Assembly: GCA_905250025.1 (NCBI GenBank)
Contig: CAJNOJ010000006.1
Location: 186,001-250,000, forward strand
DNA from: Adineta ricciae
Taxonomy: Eukaryota > Rotifera > Eurotatoria > Adinetida > Adinetidae
Direction of reading: 5' to 3'
Length of the DNA: 64,000 bases
Shown here: positions 49,093 to 63,325 of the stretch, one piece after another
Numbering within the stretch: the first letter of the stretch is position 1
Layout: the number at the start of each line of letters is the position of its first letter
Notes under the pieces: model-generated
Seen by the model: the letters and a program-made list of their open reading frames with translations, nothing else
Database searches by the model: none
Told to the model about the DNA's origin: nothing
Translations under genes and position numbers: made by a program

Positions 49093-49197
49093 GTTGCTCT
49101 GGCAGATCAGCGTTGCCACCGATCCGCACGTTTTCGTCATCGCAACATGTATTTGATCAGAGTTGATCATTTACCTCTTGGTAAGTTGTAATAAGCA
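49093..49197 (-). ncRNA. spliced leader (SL) RNA gene, copy 1L, variant II
   Basis: Minus-strand SL RNA. The leader exon is 49175..49197 and is followed on the transcript by GTAAATGATC, a consensus donor. The intron half folds: GATCA-ACTC-TGATC right after the donor, then a hairpin GATCGGTG-GCAA-CGCTGATC, all enclosed by TGTTGC/GCAACA. The length to GCAAC is 105 nt. The leader core GCTTATTACAACTTACC matches the bdelloid SL from memory. Its hairpin differs from the other copies by compensatory changes. Confidence 0.85.
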
Positions 49198-49327
49198 ACT
49201 TGCCTCGTTGATATCGGGTGCGCAACATTACTCTTGTCTTTCCACATAGCGCTTGAAGGAGAGCGAATGAAAGGGCGATGTGTAGAGACTCGAGAAACGT
49301 CGCGCCCTCGCCATCGACGAGGAAAGT
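49198..49327. promoter_or_regulatory. 130-bp bidirectional SL RNA promoter
   Basis: Shared upstream region of head-to-head SL genes 1L and 1R. The arms next to each start are inverted copies (CTCGTTGATATCGGG-like and ATCGACGAGGAAAG). The centre holds the conserved GGAGAGCGAA-type purine block and TGTAGAGACTCGAGAAACGTCG. A snRNA-type PSE is expected here but cannot be assigned by eye. Confidence 0.6.
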
Positions 49328-49432
49328 TGCTTATTACAACTTACCAAGAGGTAAATGATCAACTCTGATCAAATACATGTTGCGATGACGAAATCGTGCG
49401 GGCTGGTAGCAATACTAGCCTGCCAGAGCAAC
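49328..49432 (+). ncRNA. SL RNA gene, copy 1R, variant I
   Basis: Leader exon 49328..49350, donor GT at 49351. It carries the variant I hairpin GGCTGGTA-GCAA-TACTAGCC and terminal pairing TGTTGC/GCAACA. The 3' flank (CTTTCAAATTAATCAG) differs from the CTTTTCATC flank seen after most other copies. It is shared only with copy 4L. Confidence 0.85.
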
Positions 49433-51497
49433 ACTTTCAAATTAATCAGAAAGAAAACAAATACGAAATGTTATGATCATCTTATATTTTGAGGCTGACG
49501 ATGTGACTATGCTGGTCATCAATTATAGGAGCAGACAGCGACTTCTTTTGGCTCATAAAAGAGATCAGCTAAGTGCTTTGCACCTGAGGTTTTCATTAGT
49601 TACTTGTGCAGTCCTGTATCGAATGATACTGATTAATGACTCTTTATTATTCATTTCTCCAGTCAACCAGATCCAACCGACTGGAACAGTAAACGAAAGA
49701 AGGGACTAGTTTCATTCAGCTGTTGGAGTAGCATTGCTTTTCTTGTATAAACTTTGCCATGTTCAGCTTATTCAGGCAATGGATAAAAATCAACAAAAAA
49801 TTGTCGTTGATTTTGTTTAGAATGAGGACTATTTTTGTCGTTTGTGACCCTTATGTTTTTTACTACTATTTATACACAACTCTACTCTTAATGTGTGTGA
49901 TTTCAATGGAAAAGCAATATTTTTGTATTTCTTTTGCACAAATGTCAATCGCTTGTTCATACTAAGATGCAGCAGTCTGTTAATCGTCTTGATCATCTTT
50001 TAGAGAATCGGGTCAATAATAATAGTGTGCTCTGTCAATCTTGTCAGACGTTTGTTTGAGTAGCAACACTGCGTAGAGAGCGAGATAAGCAAATTCTAGA
50101 GATTTCTCTCGTTAGGTACTGGTAGACAGAGAGTTTTAAAAAGACACAAGACCACCTCCAGTTTTCGCTAACTTTTCGAAATCTGAGTTAAATAGTACTT
50201 GCCCACAGTAGACTACAAAAAGTGCACCAGCTGTTGAATTTGTTTGTGTATATCAGGAAGAAAAATCCTATGTTAATGATGACTTCGCCAGTCGAAGTGC
50301 GAAGTGCTCGTTTGAGCATTTGATAGGTCAAATACTCAAGATGTATACCACCAAATGGCTTTGTCTAAATGATAGTCACGTTCAAACTCATCAATGGCCC
50401 TTTCATCGCACCGATGTTGGATCCAAAGACAGATACAAACTACCACTTTTGAATGAGGATTCTCCTTGTACAATGAATAGTTTGCAGATGCCTAAACAAA
50501 ACACACTTATCTACTGTCTATTATGTTGACGAGGAGAACTTTTCGGAAATCACTTCACGCTAACGAATTAAATCTTGATTGTGAGAAAAGCGCGTAATCT
50601 ACAAGCGTTGACTATGTTTACTCACATAGGAAGAAATGAGTATAACTGAACTGATCCATCGGGACTAAGAAAGAGATCGATGAAAGTTGAATTATGATAT
50701 ACAAGCATTTTTATACTTGGCCATTTTCGATTATTTGAATGTGGTTTCAATCACACTTCTTTCCTTTTTCTAGACAACTCTTTATAATTAGATGTAAGGT
50801 ATCTGCTATTGAATCGATGCTAGTCGATGGATCTACTGACAGTATTTGTTTAAATAGTTTTTCCATTCATTTGGCACTGTTTTCATCTCTATAAAGACGC
50901 TCGCAAAGTAACTGACTAATCTGATACAATAGAATTGAATGTCGATATGCATATTCCATGTGAATACACATTCACAGTAAGTACTAAAGTCAACTTCAAA
51001 TCTTTCCAATGATCTTTTCAACGAAGAATAATCAAGTCGACGCATATATAACATTCTACCAATGACACTTTTTAGAACAGGAATAATCGAAGAAATAGAA
51101 AATGCATCAAGAAAAAATTCAGATATAAATAAACCATGAAGATCCTTCGATGTTTTATTACTAAAACATCACCAGCATTTTGAAGGACTACGTATTGAGA
51201 TAAGATCTTGTTCATATATATTTGGAATCAGGCAAAAAGTATTGGAGGAATGATTATTTTCGATACTGATTCAATAATTCCTCACCCTCAAGATAGAATC
51301 TTTTCCATTGATTCAGTAACGTATTTCTTTTATTTAAAGGGAGTGGATGTAGGTTCGATCTTGATGATAAAAACCTATTAGAATGCTCCATAGTTTTCAA
51401 CGGATATCCTCGCTAGTTCGATTATAAATAAATAGTTCTATAGTCATTAGTAAAACGTTAACATTTGAATAATACGATTCCCGTTCCCGAAGGAACG
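49433..51497. other. repeat-derived spacer, no intact gene
   Basis: The first 170 bp (to about 49602) recur in inverted orientation at 57651-57810. The rest contains only short degenerate frames that I cannot assign. Confidence 0.45.
49435..49602 (+). repeat. arm of large inverted duplication (left)
   Basis: Near-identical to the reverse complement of 57651..57810, including the phrases GAGGCTGACGATGTGACTA and GATCAGCTAAGTGCTTTGCA. Together with the adjacent SL pairs this forms an inverted repeat of about 0.5 kb per arm bracketing 49.1-58.2 kb. Confidence 0.8.
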
Positions 51498-51499
51498 GG
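51480..51499 (-). terminator. UUCG-loop hairpin at U2 3' end
   Basis: Perfect inverted repeat CCCGTTCC-TTCG-GGAACGGG on the transcript strand, directly after U2 copy 1. It may be the U2 terminal stem or a 3'-processing structure. The equivalent position of copy 2 lacks it. Confidence 0.5.
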
Positions 51500-51691
51500 A
51501 GTGGACCGAACTCGACGGCACTGCAGTGTCGAGACGATCCGTGGCGCAGGTCCGAGTGAACCCGGGTGATCCTGGCCCATGTCCAAAAATCCGCTTGAAA
51601 GAGCCTGGCCCCGATGGGACCAGCGCCGGCTTTCAAACCGACGAGAACAGATACTACACTTTGATCTTAGCCGAAAAGGCCGAGAAGCGAT
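51500..51691 (-). ncRNA. U2 spliceosomal RNA, copy 1
   Basis: Minus strand, 5' end at 51691. It starts ATCGCTTCTCGGCC, contains the branch-point recognition region GTGTAGTATCTGTTC, the Sm site ATTTTTGG (about 51585) and the stem-loop IV core TGCAGT within CTCGAC...GTCGAG. Compared with vertebrate U2, from memory, there are single extra bases in stem I and before GTGTAG. The stem II/III region is GC-rich and rearranged. The 3' end is estimated, at the UUCG hairpin. U2 pairs with the intron branch point. Confidence 0.88.
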
Positions 51692-52029
51692 AACTAACAT
51701 CACAAATTCGATCATCTTTTCTACCTCATGTCTTCACACATTTGATATTTTTCTATCCTTACGAAACAAAGTTTCATCAGTTCATCGCTGAATGACGTCA
51801 TTTGTGTGACTATAATTTCGGTGAAGAAGTGACGAGAGATGGCAGTTGCTATTTTTCTTATTATATTGGAATTCTTGCCACCAATCAGCTCGTTTTCGTC
51901 ATCCCACCGCAATATGTATTTGATCTAGTAATTTTTATCAGAGTTAATCTAATACCTACTCCAAAGCATATAACAACTAAATATCCTTTATAAGAGAATT
52001 GAAGATTTCAAATGCTACACGAACATTCG
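51692..52029. other. U2 copy 1 upstream region
   Basis: 5' flank of U2 copy 1 on the minus strand. No gene seen; the U2 PSE should lie within the proximal 100 bp but is not identifiable by eye. Confidence 0.4.
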
Positions 52030-52500
52030 GTGTCCGATAATGACCTATTCTGCGCCGACCAGATGCTCCAAATAGTAGATTTCCTCTGGGTTTTCCTCGG
52101 ATGTTAGTGGAATACTGTTTCCGGAATCGTTGTTCTGGGCTGTGATATTTCTATAGTGTTTTTTCAAATATACAATGTCTTCGAGAGTTGAACCAAGTTG
52201 TTTACGGGTCAAGTCTGTAATGACATCTTTTAAATTATGGGCAACACATAAATAAGTGAATTGTTGTTTCTTGGTGGTTACAGAATAGCCATTTTCTTCC
52301 ATTCTCACTTTTCCCTGTGCGACTTCTTGTATTCAGTCCAAAGGTGACCGATTACATCACACATCGAAGATTCTTTTTGGTAGGTTAATTTCATTCTTAA
52401 TATTGAAGAACTGGATGTCACTCAAATGCTTTAATCTTTTAATACGTTTCGGCATTCAAAAGATATTATCTTCAATCAATTTCTAGTAGATCAATTTATT
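52030..52500 (-). mobile_element. non-LTR retrotransposon remnant (C-terminal end), copy C
   Basis: The open stretch 52045-52308 ends KQLGSTLEDIVYLKKHYRN, paralleling HQLGIDYESIVYMKG in the 55.8-56.1 kb element. The following DNA has a CATTTTGGCG/CGTTTCGGCATTC-like block and ATCTTCAATCAA also found in that element. No RT core remains. Confidence 0.5.
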
Positions 52501-52660
52501 CTTTCCTAGGATTGGCCCTGAAGTGCTATCCAACCTTTCCCAAACGTTGTCACGCACATCCTCAAGATTTGTAGCATGGTGATTCGGCAAAAGTATAAAG
52601 AGTAAAACAGGAAGGATGAGGACGGTCGTGTTTTTTTCTTTTTATATTTGGATGAAAAGT

Positions 52661-52765
52661 GTTGCTCTGGCAGGCTAGTATTGCTACCAGCCCGCACGAT
52701 TTCGTCATCGCAACATGTATTTGATCAGAGTTGATCATTTACCTCTTGGTAAGTTGTAATAAGCA
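52661..52765 (-). ncRNA. SL RNA gene, copy 2L, variant I
   Basis: Leader exon 52743..52765 on the minus strand with GT donor next to it. Variant I hairpin. The 3' flank reads CTTTTCATC. Confidence 0.87.
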
Positions 52766-52895
52766 ACTTTCCTCGTCGATAGCGAGGGCACGACATCACT
52801 ATCGTCTTTTCACATAGCGTTTGAGGGAGAGCGAAAGAAAGGGCGATGTGTAGAGACTCGAGAAACGTCGTGATCTCGCCATCGACGAGGAAAGT
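52766..52895. promoter_or_regulatory. 130-bp bidirectional SL RNA promoter
   Basis: Between SL 2L and 2R. Same length and layout as the spacers at 49198-49327 and 57921-58050: inverted arms CTCGTCGATAGCGAGGGCACGAC / GTCGTG...CGACGAG around the central GGAGAGCGAAAGAAAGGGCG block. Confidence 0.6.
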
Positions 52896-53000
52896 TGCTT
52901 ATTACAACTTACCAAGAGGTAAATGATCAACTCTGATCAAATACATGTTGCGATGACGAAAACGTGCGGGCTGGTAGCAATACTAGCCTGCCAGAGCAAC
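52896..53000 (+). ncRNA. SL RNA gene, copy 2R, variant I
   Basis: Leader exon 52896..52918, GT donor at 52919. Variant I hairpin, 3' flank CTTTTCATC. About 140 bp further on lies the 3' end of U2 copy 2 in the opposite orientation. Confidence 0.87.
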
Positions 53001-53137
53001 ACTTTTCATCAAATAAAATAAAGAAGCAATGGAGAGAGAGATAGACATCCGTGGTATGCTGTACACATCACTCATGTGAAAGGAATAGTGGTGAAAAGAG
53101 GATGAAGTTATCATTTTGATATTTTATGAAAGAATGG

Positions 53138-53329
53138 AAGTGGACCCTACTCGACGGCAATGCAGTGTCGAGAAGATCCGTGACTGAGGGCCCGAGTCAA
53201 CTCGGATGATCCTAGTCGGTATCCAAAAATCCGCTTGAAAGAGCCTGATCCGAGTGGGATCAGCGCCGGCTTTCAAACCGACGAGAACAGATACTACACT
53301 TCGATCTTAGCCGTGAGGCGAGAAGCGAT
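53138..53329 (-). ncRNA. U2 spliceosomal RNA, copy 2 (diverged)
   Basis: Minus strand, 5' end at 53329. It has ATCGCTTCTCGCC, GTGTAGTATCTGTTC and the Sm site ATTTTTGG. Many substitutions relative to copy 1 fall in stems and keep pairing (CTGATCC/GGATCAG replaces CTGGTCC/GGGCCAG; CCGAG/CTCGG replaces CCGGG/CTCGG). Stem I is two bases shorter with loop TCAC. Stem-loop IV reads TGCATT instead of TGCAGT, which may weaken U2B'' binding. It is either a variant U2 or a young pseudogene. Confidence 0.78.
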
Positions 53330-53460
53330 AAAGCAAACTGTAGAAATATGAGCTTTAAAAATCGGTCTGTCTTTACTGATGTCGTACACTTTTACTACAT
53401 GAATGAGTCAACATTACTAACAAGTATTTCACAATTATGATGCAAAGCGAAAGAATGATT

Positions 53461-53495
53461 TCAGATCAGCGTTGCTACCGATCTGGACGATTTCC
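53461..53495 (-). pseudogene. SL RNA 3' fragment
   Basis: CAGATCAGCGTTGCTACCGA-like sequence equals the variant II hairpin region of SL copy 1L; leader exon and donor are missing. Confidence 0.65.
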
Positions 53496-53699
53496 TTTTT
53501 TTTCTCCGCGGTACGTTTTATTTATACATTTTCATCCATGGCAAAAGACACTAAAAAACAAGCATGGTAGTTTGATTGACTTAATTTGACCGACGTCAAA
53601 TGGCAACCACTGAACGGCTGTTAAGAAAAGTCAGGTTGCCACGGATAGATCTACTTCGAAGTTGTTGTTGCATTGATGCGTCGCAGTATTTCGGGATTT

Positions 53700-55262
53700 T
53701 CATATGAAATATAGATAATTACCGACCATGAAGACTACGTTCTTTTTAATTGGAGAGGTAGGTGATAGCTGATGGATTTCTTTGAGGCATATTATATCGA
53801 TCGGTGTTCTTTTGATTTCATTTTTGCAAATTGATTTAATTTTGACACCAGGGCAATCAATCCCGCACCTGGATCCGATCGGATCGGAAACATGAATTTT
53901 TCGAGATTTTCTAAGGGCCATCATAGAATATGGCTGGAAAGATTGCTCATAAAATTTGCAATAACCGACGAAACTTCTCCAGTCGGACTCGGTCAGATCC
54001 AGCATCGCTTTTGTTGACCGGGGAAGGCATCTCGCGAAGAGATGTACAATGGCTTCAATTTCGTTGCACAGAAGACATTTTCTAGTAGTGTCGTTATGAC
54101 TAGTACGTGAACGAGCATGAATTCCATAGTTTTCTAGGATCATCCAGAAATCCAGTATACGATGGAGCAAGCTTTCTGTTACCAATTTCAAAAATAGATA
54201 TCTTTTAGATGCGGAACTCTAAGTTCCGCCATGGGGTTTACGAAAGTAAAATCGGTTAATTAACTGCCAGTAAAAGAATTGTTGATTTTGTTGTATTTTG
54301 GGACTTCCATCTGCTTTTAACCACATCCTAGTATTTGCCGCTACTTCATCGAAGAAAGATTCGACCATAAATCTGGAAAATATTCACGCAACTGAACACC
54401 GGGTTCTATTAAGGCGCAGAATTTCCATGGAGCTGGGTTTGACGGGTTGATCCGTTACGAGTGACATCTTATGTGTAAAGCCTCGACCATTGCTTGTACA
54501 TATGGAAAATTGTAACTACCAACGTGTTCGTGACCGGTAATTGTTCCAAGTTTGATTCGTGGAACGACGGTAGACCAGAAGAATTTACCAATCATGTCTT
54601 GCAACTGTTCTATTACCTTCTTTGGTATTACTGATAATAATAACTAATATATCAATTGACTCAGAATAAAAACTTTTAACACTGTAACTCGTTCGTTTAA
54701 GAAAAGGCTGGTTGATTTCCAGAATTCGATTTACTGCTTGATGACGTTTAGTTTCTTTTCTAATTCAGGTTGCGGTAATTTCCCTGTTGTATCGATTGGG
54801 GCGCTCAAGAACGTGCACCAATCCGATATCCATAGTATCTCGATTTTCATACTATTAACTTCAGCACTTGAAGTAACGCTATACAACTCAAATATGTCCA
54901 TGGTTAATTTTTCTTCTCGAAAATTTCGTACAATTGTGTTAACATCATCGGCATAAGCAATAGTTTTAATTCTAACTTGCTCTACATCTTTTCTTTGATC
55001 GTTCTCTGTGAGGAATGTGTTACGGATAGTTTCAAATTGGCCTCCAGGGGGTAATACACCTAAAATTGTGCGATTTGAACGAATGCGATGCAATAGTGGT
55101 TCAAGACAAATGATAAATAGTACTCCAGATAAATTGCAACCTTGTCTAACACATGAATTAAAATCTATCGATGTTGAAATGTAGTCGTTCAATTTTATTC
55201 TAAAAAGATCCATTGAAGTAGAGGAGTGTAATCCAGTTAATGAAGTTCGTAGTGAGGGTGTG
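53700..55262 (-). mobile_element. decayed non-LTR retrotransposon, copy A
   Basis: Minus strand. Reverse-transcriptase motif B-like SCVRQGCNLSGVLFIICLEPLL and motif C AYADDVNTIV are in 54731-55262. Downstream (53700-54191) is a zinc-binding tail with CLLCNEIEAIVHLFARC, as in zf-RVT ends of LINE polymerases, and between them the phrase KFFWSTVVPRIKLG. Frames are interrupted and the 5' half of RT is missing. The upstream edge is joined directly to an SL-repeat segment at about 55265-55280. No endonuclease domain seen. Confidence 0.75.
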
Positions 55263-55369
55263 GGTAACGAGGTTTGGGAAAAGATACATAGCGTTTGAGG
55301 GAGAGCGAAAGAAAGGGCGATGTCTAAGGACACGAGAGATGTCGTGCTCTTTACTACTTGTCGTACAAT

Positions 55370-55474
55370 TGCTTATTACAACTTACCAAGAGGTAAATGA
55401 TCAACTCTGATCAAATACATGTTGCGATGACGAAAACGTGCGGGCTGGTAGCAATACTAGCCTGCCAGAGCAAC
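55370..55474 (+). ncRNA. SL RNA gene, copy 3 (solo), variant I
   Basis: Leader exon 55370..55392 and GT donor at 55393. It is not paired: the upstream arm is cut off by the retrotransposon junction, and the proximal promoter (TTTACTACTTGTCGTACAAT) differs from the ATCGACGAGGAAAG type. The RNA part is intact, but expression is doubtful. Confidence 0.75.
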
Positions 55475-55476
55475 AC

Positions 55477-55626
55477 TTTTCATCAAATACAATAAAAAAA
55501 AGCAACGGAGAGAGAGAGATAGATATCAGTGCTATCCTGTACACGTCACTTATGTGAAAAGAATAGTGGTGAAAAGAGGATGAAGTTATCATTTGATATT
55601 TTATGAAAGAATGAAAGTGGACCCTA
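55477..55626 (+). repeat. segmental duplicate of the SL-U2 spacer
   Basis: Matches 53001-53148 with few changes (GGAGAGAGAG...GATAGA, GTGGTGAAAAGAGGATGAAG) and ends in GTGGACCCTAC, the 3' terminus of U2 copy 2. There it is interrupted by a MITE-like element. Confidence 0.75.
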
Positions 55627-55726
55627 CACTGTAAAAAAAATCGGGTCATACTGAACCTTTCTATTGGTTTTAGACGCTAGCTAAAATCTTTTATGGTTCA
55701 GTATTGCCCGGTTTTTTTTTAGAGAG
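55627..55726. mobile_element. small MITE-like element
   Basis: About 100 bp with imperfect terminal inverted repeats, left CACTGTAAAAAAAATCGGG and right ending CCGGTTTTTTTTTAGAGAG; inner arms are TACTGAACC and GGTTCAGTA. It sits exactly where the duplicated U2 segment breaks off. No coding capacity. Confidence 0.6.
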
Positions 55727-55788
55727 CAGATCAGCGTTGTCACCGATCCGGACGATTTCGTCATCGCAACATATGTTTGATCAGAGTT
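55727..55788 (-). pseudogene. SL RNA 3' fragment
   Basis: Contains the variant II hairpin, the CGATGACGAAATCG stretch and GATCAAAC...CTCTGATC region but stops before the donor and leader exon. Confidence 0.7.
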
Positions 55789-55789
55789 T

Positions 55790-57600
55790 TTTTGGTTAGA
55801 CATCTGTTTATTATGTTTTATAAGGGATTCACATTAGATTACATTAAGATCGAGTTTCCAACGATAGAGATGAAAATTTTGTTAGGAATACTTTGGTCTG
55901 ATACCCGATGCCGTCCAATTGTCAAGTTCCTTGTTGTCCAAACGCTCCAAATATATGCACCGATCGCGAGGACCACCTTTTTTCTTACTTTATTGTTTTT
56001 CGGAAAAGCTAGGATCCCTTTCATATATACGATGCTTTCATAGTCTATTCCAAGTTGATGTTCACTCATGTTTCTTATTCTTTTCGCCATTTTGTTTCGA
56101 CAGTCATCGGAGAAATTGGATGCTATGAAGATATGCTTTGTTGTTTCTTCTTCTTGATTGCATAGGAAACATCTCTTCTTTCCCTCCGTATCGCCTAATC
56201 TCGATCTTGTGTAGTAATTTAAAGAAGAGTATATCCTTTAAATGTGGTAATCTTGTAATGCATTTTGGCGTACGAAAAAGCCCATCTTCAATCAAGGCAT
56301 AATACTGCCATAATGCTGGCTTCTTTCCGGAGACTAGATGACGACCACATTTAATGCGAAGAGAGGCAACCATGGTTTTGATACAGAGTAATGCAAGGCC
56401 ACCATTGTCCTTCTTTCCTACAAGTGTACTGAAAACGATCGTCGGTTTCTTGTTTTTCCAAAAAAATTTATTAATCATCTTTTGGAGTTTTTTAATTGTT
56501 TCCTTTGTTATTTTTCCAAAGATCATTAAGTAAATAATACGGCTTATAGTGAATGTTTTCAGAATCGTACAACGTTAAATGAGTGACAAATCATAATTAC
56601 TCCACATTGCTATCTGTTGTTTAATAGTTGTTAACATCACATTAATATCTTCCCAGGTATATGTCCATAGCCATCCACCGCTACACCTAGGAAAGTATAG
56701 CTATTCTGTTTGACTTTCGCTTCAAAAGCTGGTGAAGGTTGCCCACCGCTGATCCACAGAATTTCTGTTTTTTCCGTGTTCGTTTTGCCACCTGAAGAAG
56801 CATTAAATAATTCTAACATTTTCTTCGTTTCGATTTTCTCATTTTGATCTTTCACAATCGTATTGAGATCATCTGCATACCCTAGAACTTTAACCTTCAC
56901 ATTTTCTTATTTGGTTAATTGGTTCGGGTTAATGATACATTGCACTGTGAAGTATCTTGCACCGGGCGGATCCACCTCGGATATCAGCGCATTTGTTCGA
57001 ATTCGGTGTAACAAAGGTTCTAATGCAATTATAAATAGCGAAGCAAATAGGGCACAGCCTTGTCTTACTCCTGATTTAAAATCTATGGCTCTTGATATAC
57101 ATCCATTTAATCTAATCTCAAAAGTTCCGTTTTTATATAACATAGATATCTATTTAATGAAATTTTCTCCTGGTCCAAATGCACGTAAGGCCGCTTTAAG
57201 ATAATCATGATTCACACGGTCGAATGCTTTCTCTTGATCCCATAGGATAATTCCTATAGGATCTTTTGTGCGTTGTTGATATTCAATGATTGCTCATATT
57301 AGATGAATATTATCATTAATCATTCTTCCTGGAAGACATTAAGTTTGATTTGAATGAATAATTTTTTCCATCACCAATTTTAACATCTTGTAGTCAGTAT
57401 TCATCAGGGATAACGGTCGATAGCTCTTCATCGAACCATCGATTGCACCTTCCTTCTTTATTAATGCTAATAGTGCATCCTCTCCTGGCGCTTTTCGTTC
57501 TGGCATATCACATACAGCATGCTGAAATTCTTGGATTGTAATATCCGCATTTAACTTCTTCTGCTCGTCGTCGTTTAACTGTGGTAGTCCATCGAAGAGA
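55790..57600 (-). mobile_element. decayed non-LTR retrotransposon, copy B
   Basis: Minus strand, read from 57.6 kb down. RT motifs appear in order: SYRPLSLMNTDYKMLKLV, motif A LWDQEKAFDRVNHDY, motif B SGVRQGCALFASLFIIALEP and motif C GYADDLNTIV. They are followed by NKFFWKNKKPTIVF and a terminal region with AYIWSVWTTRNLTIGR. Stops interrupt it (for example after GPGENFIK, and at QLTK). It is a different subfamily from copy A. It is truncated at the 5' end near the inverted-duplication arm. Confidence 0.8.
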
Positions 57601-57650
57601 CGTCTAAGTCAGACTTTTCAGAAATCCTACCCAACGAGTAGTATGCCACT

Positions 57651-57810
57651 AATGAAAACCTCGGGTGCAAAGCACTTAGCTGATCTCTTTTATGAGCCAA
57701 AAGAAGTCGCTGTCTACTCCTATAATTGATGACCAGCCTAGTCACATCGTCAGCCTCAAAATATAAGATAATCATAACTTTTCGTATTTGTTTTCTTTCT
57801 GATTAATTTG
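57651..57810 (-). repeat. arm of large inverted duplication (right)
   Basis: Reverse-complement match of 49435..49602, adjoining SL copy 4L. Confidence 0.8.
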
Positions 57811-57815
57811 AAAGT

Positions 57816-57920
57816 GTTGCTCTGGCAGGCTAGTATTGCTACCAGCCCGCACGATTTCGTCATCGCAACATGTATTTGATCAGAGTTGATCATTTACCTC
57901 TTGGTAAGTTGTAATAAGCA
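57816..57920 (-). ncRNA. SL RNA gene, copy 4L, variant I
   Basis: Leader exon 57898..57920 on the minus strand. Variant I hairpin. The 3' flank CTTTCAAATTAATCAG is the one seen after copy 1R, showing common descent by inversion or gene conversion. Confidence 0.87.
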
Positions 57921-58050
57921 ACTTTCCTCGTCGATAAGGAGGGCACGACATTACTCGTGTCTTTTCACATAGCGTTTGAGGGAGAGCGAAAGAAAGGGCG
58001 ATGTGTAGAGACTCGAGAAACGTCGTGATCTCGCCATCGACGAGGAAAGT
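57921..58050. promoter_or_regulatory. 130-bp bidirectional SL RNA promoter
   Basis: Between SL 4L and 4R; same spacing and central block as the other two pairs. Confidence 0.6.
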
Positions 58051-58155
58051 TGCTTATTACAACTTACCAAGAGGTAAATGATCAACTCTGATCAAATACA
58101 TGTTGCGATGACGAAATCGTGCGGGCTGGTAGCAATACTAGCCTGCCAGAGCAAC
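58051..58155 (+). ncRNA. SL RNA gene, copy 4R, variant I
   Basis: Leader exon 58051..58073 and GT donor at 58074; variant I hairpin; 3' flank CTTTTCATCAAAATGTAAAAAG, shared with copy 5R. Confidence 0.87.
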
Positions 58156-58788
58156 ACTTTTCATCAAAATGTAAAAAGAAAAATGTCGGGGAATTCTCTT
58201 GTAAGACAGTCTGCTCGATATGGTTTCTTGGTGGAAGAGTAGGAAATGAACATGTGGAGAAAGCGTGCGTTTATATGGTGGGTGATTTGACAGAGTATGT
58301 TACAAGGGAAGATGATTCATAGCATATGTCAAGTGAAATATTTGGTGCTTGATATGAAAACAATATATAATAATGTTTGTCGGCAACGTTCATGTTGAAA
58401 TGGTTAATGTGACAACATTGAGAATGACGTCTATATATACGATTAGTTTGGATGAGGAGGGCGGGAGAAAAAGAAAAGAATAACCAATACAAGAAGTGGT
58501 TAGTTCCTCTGTTTGTATTGAGGATTTGGTTTTGTAGAAAAGAGCAATTGACGACATCAATCGGAGTGATTGTCATGGTTGGCGCCTGTTACCATCGGAT
58601 AACAATGCGAAGAAATAGAAAAGAAAATGACAAAGGATTGAAGATAGGAATGAAAACAGAAAAAAACCGACAAGTGCAATCGCTTGCGAATTGTGTTTTA
58701 TTAGCAAGGAAATACGCCTATATTAACAAAAAAGAGTCTATATATAGAGTGTGGTCTATACTTCGGGTGCGCGCATTCCTACTCGAAT
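58156..58788. other. spacer between SL cluster and ERG channel
   Basis: No exon encoding a PAS domain or other recognisable protein. It must contain the ERG promoter or a 5' leader. Confidence 0.45.
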
Positions 58789-61700
58789 ATGACTACGGAA
58801 AGTTCAAAATCTGGAGCACCTACGCTGCCTGAGGAGGCAGATGTCGTCCGACCCGTGTCTAATCACAACCGACGATTATCGTTTCAGTCAACGGTACGTT
58901 CAACATGTCAGCAATAGAACATTTCGTGACTTGTTTGTCAGCAGCAGTCAATTTTCGCTTGCAACTTTTCTTCCGACCAAACGTTTTTTTTCATCTTCTA
59001 TTTAAGACCAATTTTATTTAGGTTTTTCGTACTCAACGATTGATGCGCGTTCTCAAAACAATAAATTCCTCGCCTGAAGTGAGAAAAGATAATCAGATCG
59101 GATCTACGATGATCGAAGGAACTCAACATCAACGACGTGGTGCTAAAACACTGGAAAAGGTATATAATTGTAGATTAGCATCAATCGATCGACTTGAATC
59201 ATATCAATCTGCGAGGCAGAAATAATGAAATGCGATCTTATTCAAACATACTTTTTCTTGTGATATTAATCTTGAATTCTAATAAGTTTGACGAATTCAC
59301 ATAGAGAGAACAGTTCTCCGTTCTTTATTTTTCCACCAACAAAAAAAATTGACATTTCCCGTTTGTACTAAAACTATTCATTTGTCTGTCGATCAACAAG
59401 AAGTTTGTGAGTGCTTTAAGCTGACAAACAAGGTTGTAGTCTTTCCGATTTTTTTGAACAAAAAAAACAGAGGAGAAGAAGGAAAAAGAATAAAAAAGAG
59501 TCAACGAAGAAAAAAATTAAGATCGCGTAACACCAAGTGCGTTAGAAGAAAAAAAAGGCTATTTATTAGATATTTAAATAGAGAAGGAGAAATTGCCGGG
59601 AAGAACAATACCGAGAACAACAGCAACGTCACTACTACAACATAATGATCCAACATGTCAATGAGACGACAATCAATATTTTCTACATTTTCTCCTACTG
59701 AAACTCGATCGCACGTAAGACTATGATCAAAGTAATATCTACTGATATGATTCTTTCGATTGAGCGAGAGAGAGAGAAAATTTACTACATACAATCAATT
59801 ATCTTCTTCAATTTCAGGCACCTTCAGGAGAAAGTAGTGAAACATCAAGTGTTAGTCCTGTCTTAGGTCAATCGAACAATGCTACTGCTGCCGCTGCCAG
59901 TTCGCGCCGACTCGGTCAACGATTCATTATTCTTCACTATTCGCCATTTAAAGCTGTGTAAGTTCAATTAATTTCAATGCATATATATATGGATTGAATA
60001 AGCATGCAATCATTATCTAGATGGGATTGGGTAGTCATTTTGCTTGTCTTATACACTGGTATAATTACGCCGTACACAATTTCATTTCTTTCTGATGAAG
60101 ATCAGAAACGAACTCATTTAAACACATTCGCAGCCACACGACAATTTAATCGAGAGCGAACCAGTATTCATGTTCTAGTTATTATTGATGTTCTTGTTGA
60201 TTTCATGTTCATATTTGATATACTGATCAGTTTTCGGTATGATTGAATCTACTGTTGGATTTTATCTGAGATGCGTTCCTTTGATCTTTTCTAGAACAAC
60301 ATTCGTATTGAAAGAAACCAATGAAGTGATTACGAATCCCATTTTAATCGCGAAACACTTCGTAATCGATTCATGGAGACGATTTGCTGCCGATATACTT
60401 GGAGCGCTACCGTGGGACATTCTATTTTTTGGAAACGGAAGTCATTCGGTGAGTTGTCTCTTGGTTTGCTTTCACTAATGAATATATCACGGTTTTTCGC
60501 TAGACAATGCGTCTTGCAAATTGCTTTAAATTAGCTCGCCTATTACGACTTGTTGCATTCGTCCGAAATTTTCAGAAAACTGAATATCGATCAGCAGTTT
60601 TATTTCTTCTCATGCTTCTCTTTGCCATTGCTGCACACTGGTTAGCTTGTATCTTTCATTTTATTGCCATTCTCGAACGGCCTAATCTGCAAGTCAAATA
60701 TTCATGGTTGGATCATCTTGCCGATAAATATAAAATGCCATATCGTATGTTCATCAAAACTATTTTTAATCTACCAAAAGACGACCAATTTATTCTTTTG
60801 TTTCCAAGTGGCGAATGATACACTGAGCGGTCCAGATACGAAATCGAAATATTTAACTGCACTTTTCTTTGCAATGACTTCTTTAACATCAGTCGGTTTT
60901 GGAAATGTGGCAGCGGTAAATAATGAATAGCTATTATTTCCAGAAGAAAGAAGTTCGTTCTTTCTTTTGTTTCGTTCATAGAATACAAATGGCGAAAAGT
61001 TATTTTCTATACTTTCGATGTTAGCTGGATGTAAGTGATCAATCAATGGAAATGGTAAATCCGATTTGATTTTTTTGTATTCCAGCATTTCTGAGCGCTT
61101 CTATTCTTGGAAGCGTAACAACAATCATTATTAAACTATATCAAGGTGCAGAGGAATTAAAGGAAATGAAACAGAGCATCGATGATTTCATTAAACATCA
61201 TCGCATCAACAAACAACTGGCCAAACAAATGCAAGAATCATTTGATCATGAATGGAAAAATACCAAAGGAATCGATATGAATAGCATTTTGAAAACATTT
61301 CCCGAATGCATACAAGCAGATATATGTCTGCACTTGAATCGAGATCTACTAAACCATTGTCCGGTATTTGATGATGCAAGTGAAGGTAAACTTTACGATG
61401 ATTATTGTTTGAGGAAAACCTCTATGTATGTGCTTTTAGTTACTCTTCGAACATTAGCTATTCTTTTCAAATCTACTCATGTACCACCAGGTGATACACT
61501 TATACATCAAGGGGACGTTCTTTACTATATCTACTTCATACGCGGTGGTCAAATGGAAGTTCTACAAAATAATGAATCACAGGCAATAATCGGTCAAAAT
61601 GATACATTTGGAGAAAATCCATGTAATACAGTAACACCGGGAAAGTCTCGATGCGTTGTTCGTGGTGTGACATATTGTACATTGAATAAAATCCATCGCG

Positions 61701-62752
61701 ATGACCTATTACATGTTTTTCATTTATTCCCTGATTTTGCTAAATCGTTTGCTGAACGTTTCCAAGTTACATTTGATCTTAGACAAGTAGGAGAAAAACG
61801 CATCGAATTTATTCTATGCCATGAACATGATTATTTTTTATCTATAGTGTGAACTAAACGAATCCAAACCATTCTACAAGTTAGATGATGAAATACAAGT
61901 ACTGATTCGGCAGCGGCGTCCGAAATTACAAAGTGAAAAACGATTTAGTATGATGAGCGAGCGTGAAGAAGGTCAATTAGTGCTAAAGAAAAAAACATTT
62001 ATTTGTATTCTATTCTTGTATATTTCTTTAGAAGAAAATAGATTAGCAATTTTGAGATCGTTTCGCGACGTTCGTATAAGTGCTGACGGTAATGTTCGAC
62101 GATCAATGAATACTATCGTTGAGTTATCTCCTGATCAAGCCAATCTATGCGATGACAAGATCAAATTTGATCAACAGCCGCGACGAGTCTCGTTGTCACC
62201 AATAGTGCATGGTAAATCACAATTGTCGAATGAGCTTTAATATTTTGTTTATGTACGTTTAGGAATTTCCAATATGTCGGTGAAAAAGAAAACCACGCCA
62301 TACACACTCTGTCTTCCACAAGAACCAGAAGAAAAGAAGTCACTGCTACCAGCTCAGCCACGTTCTCCAATAGATCAAAACACGTAATGTGTTCCCAAAC
62401 TAAACTTTCAGATTATTTGAAAATCGTCAATTTTAGTCTGAGCATGTCACAAAAATTTGTAACCAACACTATACGCAGTATGGCTGATGTCGATGCCGAA
62501 TTAGCACTTCTTCAGATGTAAGACTAGTGGCGTATTTTCCACCACAAACACTTGATAAACACTTTTTTAAGGCGATTTGATGGCTTGGAACAATTTATCA
62601 ACGACAAAATCAAAGTTTTGTTTGATTTTGCTACAGTCGTTTCACAATCAAATGCGAATCAACTACTCACGAGTTCCATTCAAAGAAGCACGACCATTAC
62701 CAATAAAACTTACACTGTTCTAGATAAACTGGTCTTTTCAACAGAAAAATAA
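58789..62752 (+). CDS. ERG-type (Kv11/KCNH) voltage-gated potassium channel
   Basis: Fifteen exons: 58789..58893, 59022..59159, 59818..59957, 60021..60236, 60295..60448, 60504..60744, 60809..60915, 60982..61030, 61086..61385, 61440..61786, 61848..61971, 62032..62211, 62263..62383, 62437..62517, 62572..62752; 827 aa, all phases agree. Signatures are [20 protein letters not shown] (S1), [15 protein letters not shown] (S2-S3), the S4 [15 protein letters not shown], the filter SLTSVGFGN, the C-linker [21 protein letters not shown] and the [17 protein letters not shown]...NKIHRDDLL. The C-terminal coiled coil [19 protein letters not shown] resembles the ERG tetramerisation helix. The usual N-terminal PAS domain is absent; only about 105 low-complexity residues precede S1. 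One S4 arginine is Ala. Confidence 0.92.
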
Positions 62753-62874
62753 GACAACTCGTGCATGCGAATGTTTCTTAGGCTAGTCACTGATTATGAG
62801 AACTCAAAATCTAATCTTTTTCGAAATAAATCCATTGCGGTACATCGAAGAAACTATCTTTGCCTTTTCTTTAT

Positions 62875-62919
62875 TTGATCAGAATTGATCATTTATATCT
62901 TGGTAAGTTGCAATAAGCA
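62875..62919 (-). pseudogene. SL RNA pseudogene, copy 5L
   Basis: Leader-like exon 62897..62919 with a substitution (TTGCAACTT). The donor GT is changed to AT and the last exon base is altered. The 3' half after GATCAATTCTGATC is missing. The distance to its partner 5R is 301 bp rather than 130, because unrelated AT-rich DNA separates the arms. Confidence 0.75.
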
Positions 62920-63220
62920 ACTTTCCTCATTGATGCCGACTGCACGACATTACTATCGTCTTTTGATAACAAGTCGGCTCCTTTCTCTTCGTCTTCTTTC
63001 ATTGATTAATTGATACATTGATTGATCAATCTGCTTATTGTTAAAATTTGATGCATTTCAATGATATTATCTTTGCTTTACAAAGACGACATTGGATGAT
63101 AGATCTTCGAGGCGTTGACAAAGTTTGCGAAAAGAATCATCGCACTTGAGGGAGAGCGAAAGAAAGGGCGATGTGTAGAGACTCGAGAAACGTCGTGCTC
63201 TCGCCATCGACGAGGAAAGT

Positions 63221-63325
63221 TGCTTATTACAACTTACCAAGAGGTAAATGATCAACTCTGATCAAATACATGTTGCGATGACGAAATCGTGCGGGCTGGT
63301 AGCAATACTAGCCTGCCAGAGCAAC
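63221..63325 (+). ncRNA. SL RNA gene, copy 5R, variant I
   Basis: Leader exon 63221..63243, GT donor at 63244, intact variant I hairpin and the conserved upstream block TGTAGAGACTCGAGAAACGTCGTG...ATCGACGAGGAAAG. It lies 469 bp after the ERG stop. Confidence 0.87.

Follow-up and report, generated by a model that had tools for sequence, protein, structure and literature searches.

We analysed a window of 64 kb from the bdelloid rotifer Adineta ricciae (the whole stretch of DNA studied, positions 186001–250000 of contig C6) that carries a cluster of putative spliced leader (SL) RNA genes, and surveyed the assembly from which it comes (130.46 Mb, 1033 contigs). One protein of 410 aa encoded in the window shares 92% identity with a protein of A. 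ricciae, 62% with one of A. vaga (over 77% of its length) and 59% with one of A. steineri. The leader core GCTTATTACAACTTACC occurs nine times in the window at up to two mismatches (eight exact copies and one with a single mismatch), whereas 100 shuffled sequences yielded 0.02 occurrences on average and never more than one. Eight arms match the SL profile over their full length, and they make up three divergent pairs, a half-dead pair and an orphan. A preliminary description of this DNA had placed eight intact SL RNA genes within 14 kb, and its coordinates were correct. The first pair consists of a minus-strand gene at 49093–49197, with an exact leader, a GT donor and a full-length profile match of 108.7 bits, and a plus-strand gene at 49328–49432; the 130-bp spacer between them (49198–49327) holds outward promoter elements at 49236–49245 for the minus gene and 49280–49289 for the plus gene. 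The second pair (52661–52765, minus; 52896–53000, plus) and the third (57816–57920, minus; 58051–58155, plus) enclose spacers of 130 bp (52766–52895 and 57921–58050), each with two outward promoter elements. Measured from T to T of the two TGCTTATT starts, the gap is exactly 130 bp in all three pairs (49093–49432, 52661–53000 and 57816–58155), as previously reported. The orphan lies on the plus strand at 55370–55474. The fourth pair was rightly called half dead, since the intact plus-strand gene at 63221–63325 faces, with 301 bp between starts, a ninth, minus-strand arm (62919 to 62873, profile positions 1–47) whose leader is altered and in which the donor and most of the intron are missing. 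Like the first gene, all the other intact genes combine the leader core with a full-length profile match.

The identity of the arms was assessed on an alignment of 50 rows, obtained from 68 SL-like stretches of the genome after omission of 18 that were truncated or decayed. The leader GCTTATTACAACTTACCAAGAG, exact in 40 of the 50 full-length arms and carrying a 2-nt insertion in four, is followed directly by the GT donor, and GGTA is invariant. This leader equals the rotifer leader listed in Table 1 of PMC3795323 minus its first G; the extra 5′ G of the published leader would be the cap copied by reverse transcription. The arms fold into helices, with 93.8% of cells paired among 40 distinct rows and helix II the weakest (80.5%). 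Both sides had changed in 12 of 29 base pairs, compared with 7.2 in shuffles, and the covariation score was 0.233 against 0.133 in shuffles and at most 0.071 with slid partners, the shuffles not preserving relatedness. Folded singly, five arms had z-scores between −5.6 and −1.7. At Rfam gathering thresholds no SL arm of the window was named, and the 24-base leader pattern had no exact match in the other genome contigs or viral contigs searched. Taken together, leader, donor and covarying helices agree with the earlier view of each arm as an oriented SL RNA, and both the identity of the arms as bdelloid SL RNA genes and the divergent pairing are well supported. Four SL genes at C99:113187–116326 (L019) share a 2-nt leader insertion (TTATACC for TTACC), and a variant leader may thus exist.

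The arms resemble the bdelloid SL RNA of Pouchkina-Stantcheva and Tunnacliffe (2005; via the accessible text of PMC1925144 and PMC3795323) in the leader past its first G, in an RNA of about 100 nt and in a bdelloid host. According to the available part of PMC1925144, more than half of the transcripts of two bdelloid species receive by splicing a 23-nt exon that comes from RNAs about 100 nt in length, no such leader was found in a monogonont, and bdelloids are apparently obligately asexual. In the portions of PMC1925144 and PMC3795323 at hand, the gene layout, promoter and U2 linkage of bdelloid SL RNA are not described.

Genome-wide layout of the SL RNA genes

A pattern search of the 130-Mb genome yielded 41 exact 16-nt leader cores with 33 neighbour relations on the same contig. 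In 17 of these relations the distance is below 600 bp, and every one of the 17 is divergent, with no convergent case and no same-strand tandem, so that no same-strand array was found among these neighbours. Altogether, 34 of the 41 exact leaders belong to close divergent pairs. Twelve of the 17 spacings are exactly 130 bp, one falls short of this by 2 bp and one exceeds it by 1 bp. The remaining three, found twice on C79 and once on C146, are about 220–315 bp longer, and in each a third, decayed arm separates the two good arms. A genome-wide preference for divergent neighbours at 130 bp, which had been set beforehand as a test of the paired layout, is therefore present.

The spacing recurs in pairs with less regular sequences. 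It is again 130 bp in two altered-leader pairs (C8:256981 and C99:113772), and in diverged pairs it measures 125 bp (C2), 127 bp (C64), 132 bp (C43:402k and C112:290.7k) and 131–134 bp (two pairs on C94, varying with the start taken for the altered leader). Exceptions are found at C112:289k and C43:420k (47 bp, with a badly decayed minus arm), at C99:114k (346 bp) and at the half-dead pair of the window. For the comparisons below we retained 16 well-preserved pairs, omitting diverged, wide-spaced or half-dead ones (C2, C64, C94 twice, C112 twice, C43:402k, C43:420k, C79 twice, C146, C99:114k and C6:248.9k). The two C94 pairs (C94:54900–56000, L070, and C94:78800–79900, L071) stand head to head and have the SL intron motif and fold, with strongly altered leaders that lack ACTTACC; they may represent another type of SL-like RNA, or else old pseudogenes in which the paired layout has survived. 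Further intron-motif matches at C16 and C8:581k resemble SL relics, and those at C1, C4, C7, C62, C69, C83, C264, C278 and C389 looked like chance on inspection and were discarded.

A promoter word shared with U2 genes

In 49 of the 50 arms a word near GTGTANAGAC begins 46–48 bp upstream of the T of TGCTTATT; the sole arm without it, C6:251415, is interrupted by a U2 fragment. All 16 well-preserved pairs carry two such words in one short spacer, facing outward, back to back and 34–36 bp apart. The mirrored words are clear in all 16 spacers, and one of the two is weakened in six diverged spacers that were also aligned. Close to the middle of the spacer, and to one side of it, the 16 pairs show by eye a purine-rich tract (GAGAGCGAAAGAAA-like). 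The spacer thus looks as a two-way promoter would, but shared ancestry with little change in length is a credible competing account, since U2-to-SL distances also vary little. The common bidirectional promoter proposed in the preliminary description is supported at the level of architecture, by a U2-type element for each gene and a central purine-rich tract; both sides may be transcribed, and pairing may bring some benefit.

We then built a matrix from the SL promoter words and scanned it over the 120 bp upstream of other small nuclear RNA (snRNA) genes, using a floating register since in one group of SL genes the word sits at −47 and not at −48. For 13 of 15 U2 genes the best match lay at −48 or −49, with a shuffle P of 0.017 or less in nine and between 0.046 and 0.066 in four. 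Among 15 U1, U4 and U5 genes this was the case for one (a U1, best match at −48), no better than in shuffles (P 0.38). Upstream of the U1, U4 and U5 genes (L046–L060), inspection by eye shows a conserved block of another kind, with a TATA-like stretch closer to the start, which suggests that this genome has two classes of promoter, U2/SL and U1/U4/U5. Two differing U1 genes (L048 and L050) stand head to head about 280 bp apart at C18:108805–109408.

The U2 genes are also physically linked to SL genes. An SL start or relic lies within 325 bp of 13 of the 15 U2 genes, the remaining two being on contigs without an SL match (C155 and C186); judged by coordinates, no U1, U4 or U5 match lies near SL genes. 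Seven of the 13 SL-linked U2 genes (five times on C8, and on C43 and C112) share one arrangement, in which the U2 gene is followed by an SL arm in the same direction and then by a divergent SL arm; units of this kind show homology. Within the window, a minus-strand U2 gene at 51496–51691 (Rfam RF00004, 141.6 bits) has a GTGTGAAGAC element at −48 and adjoins a minus-strand SL relic at 51874–51929 (profile positions 36–86; local score 58, shuffled maximum 24). A second minus-strand U2 gene at 53135–53329 (RF00004, 122.6 bits; weak element match at −49) is of a variant type with an altered 5′ region (ATCGCTTCTCGCCTCACGG...), which is also found at L039, L041, L044 and L045; in four of these five genes the promoter word is weak or below a strong score. 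Neither the link to U2 nor the element common to U2 and SL genes was part of the preliminary description, and both are added here.

Evolution of the pairs and competing explanations

Bdelloids are known for lacking ordinary sex, and the preliminary description had proposed that gene conversion within the palindromes keeps the copies alike. We compared promoter halves and RNA parts separately in the 16 well-preserved pairs, assigning promoter sides by eye. The promoter halves are of two kinds, and across loci each pair has one of each. In 31 of 32 cases a half had its closest relative among halves of its own side, and in no case was this the other half of its pair. Divergence was 38% within pairs, compared with 19% from same-side halves at other loci belonging to that spacer group and 32% from same-side halves over all groups. 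The RNA parts behaved differently: they diverged by 6.0% within a pair and 5.3% between pairs of one locus, and by 17% between loci whichever side was compared. Of their 32 nearest neighbours, 12.2 were on the same side, 21.9 came from the same locus and 6.7 were the pair partner. Because promoter halves track the side and RNA parts track the locus, the pair was copied as a block while the transcribed parts were exchanged among the copies of a locus. Conversion that keeps copies alike was thus supported at the level of the locus. Conversion within each palindrome found no support as the main force, since the arms of a single pair resemble each other no more than do pairs of the same locus, and extra conversion within a palindrome left no visible sign. 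All four combinations of the two helix II types with the two helix IV types are present, as exchange predicts. One promoter half on C77, whose spacer is one of the two not at 130 bp, reads by eye as a mix of two spacer groups.

The explanation that we consider probable combines these elements: bdelloid SL RNA genes organised in head-to-head units, with U2-type promoter words, block copying and locus-level exchange of the RNA parts. The head-to-head pair is the usual unit, each gene having its own U2-type promoter word about 48 bp upstream; the pair has been copied as a block, often along with a U2 gene, and exchange between copies keeps the RNA parts alike within a locus. RNA polymerase II and a factor reading the promoter word would start transcription on both strands, and the purine-rich tract near the spacer centre may serve both genes. 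The resulting SL RNAs would be about 104 nt long and end at snRNA-type 3′ signals, and the leader GCTTATTACAACTTACCAAGAG would be trans-spliced to mRNAs, as published for other bdelloids.

Several observations weigh against this explanation. Intact orphans exist, such as 55370 and C8:335828, so that pairing is not needed for the upkeep of a gene. U2 genes likewise lie at a nearly fixed distance from the nearest SL start (287–292 bp in five units), and the SL spacer is therefore not alone in keeping its length. Since the U2 and SL copies are paralogous, the counts given above are not independent events. Finally, the strict canonical Sm pattern is found in 14 of 15 U2 genes, in one of 50 SL arms and in none of 15 U1, U4 and U5 genes, and a looser pattern recovers 12 of these 15 but just two of the 50 SL arms.

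The orphans and the stable U2-to-SL distances favour a founder accident, in which one inverted duplication was spread by block duplication, the genes work singly from their own promoters and the layout has no function. The same two promoter-side kinds in all 16 pairs indeed imply descent from one ancestral pair, and spacers within a group show practically no net gaps. This alternative has to explain, however, why 130 bp was kept in 14 of the 16 pairs although the two spacer groups share a mean identity of 58% with a mean of 3.5 gap columns, and why the diverged pairs on C2, C43, C64, C94 and C112 retain about 125–134 bp. We regard it as a serious contender, if a little short of an even chance. 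Transcription of one arm, with the other as a passenger kept alike by gene conversion, would fit the homogenised RNA parts within loci and the one-sided position, judged by eye, of the purine-rich tract. It seems unlikely, as the promoter word stands at the right distance on both sides in 16 of 16 pairs even though the promoters of the two sides are not homogenised.

The window also shows how pairs may be lost. The orphan 55370 retains the centre of its spacer as far as the expected start of the partner's promoter word, where a minus-strand reverse-transcriptase relic begins (53700–55260, outer limits approximate; Pfam RVT_1 E 2.2e-7 for 54731–55372). Past this relic lies a minus-strand 33-bp SL fragment at 53462–53494, from helix IV (local score 46, shuffled maximum 25), perhaps the lost partner. 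A second reverse-transcriptase relic (RVT_1 25.7 bits, under the Pfam cut-off of 29.6) abuts a minus-strand SL relic at 55726–55786 (profile positions 36–96; local score 101, shuffled maximum 27). Reverse-transcriptase insertions may have broken these SL pairs. Within 53462–57650, both relics abut an SL fragment at one end, and SL genes may be a favoured insertion site of such elements. Between pairs 3 and 4 lies a many-exon gene with a cyclic-nucleotide-binding domain (Pfam PF00027, 61166–61852).

Inverted arms of about 120 bp at many places and the nearby reverse-transcriptase relics give the pairs the look of a palindromic mobile element, as the preliminary description had remarked, but an element with a captured SL RNA gene in each arm is highly improbable, since the arms look like working RNA genes, showing covariation and a promoter word in common with U2, and short direct repeats flanking the pairs are not in excess (mean best length 4.1 in 15 of 16 pairs, the 16th being cut by a contig end, compared with 4.4 for mixed flanks, in a test that an old, eroded duplication would escape).

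Relation to known systems

Pol II snRNA genes have a proximal sequence element and a 3′ box. The SL and U2 genes described here are similar in having a word at a fixed upstream distance and, by eye, A-rich snRNA-like 3′ tails; they differ in that SL and U2 share the word whereas, again by eye, U1, U4 and U5 show another conserved block. SL RNA genes form same-strand tandem arrays in flatworms (PMC12582326, available portion) and in nematodes, where they are often near 5S genes (PMC3795323 and PMC7346339, available portions). The rotifer genes resemble these arrays in being multicopy clusters with concerted evolution, and differ in that close neighbours are divergent in 17 of 17 cases and that the neighbouring gene is U2. 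In the literature searched, from which subscription papers were mostly inaccessible, we found no description of paired or U2-linked SL genes.

It is possible, and we suggest it tentatively, that SL and U2 genes form one regulon through a promoter element of their own, apart from U1, U4 and U5, with a bidirectional two-gene SL cassette that is copied with U2. The supply of leader would then be coupled to that of U2, and SL genes may owe their origin to the capture of a U2 promoter. The head-to-head pairs with their U2-type promoter make both the origin of SL RNA and the matching of SL supply to the spliceosome testable. They also offer a natural experiment in concerted evolution, in which the promoter sides stay distinct and the RNA parts that flank them do not. 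The paired layout and the control element shared with U2 hint at how the supply of SL RNA is switched on and kept uniform.

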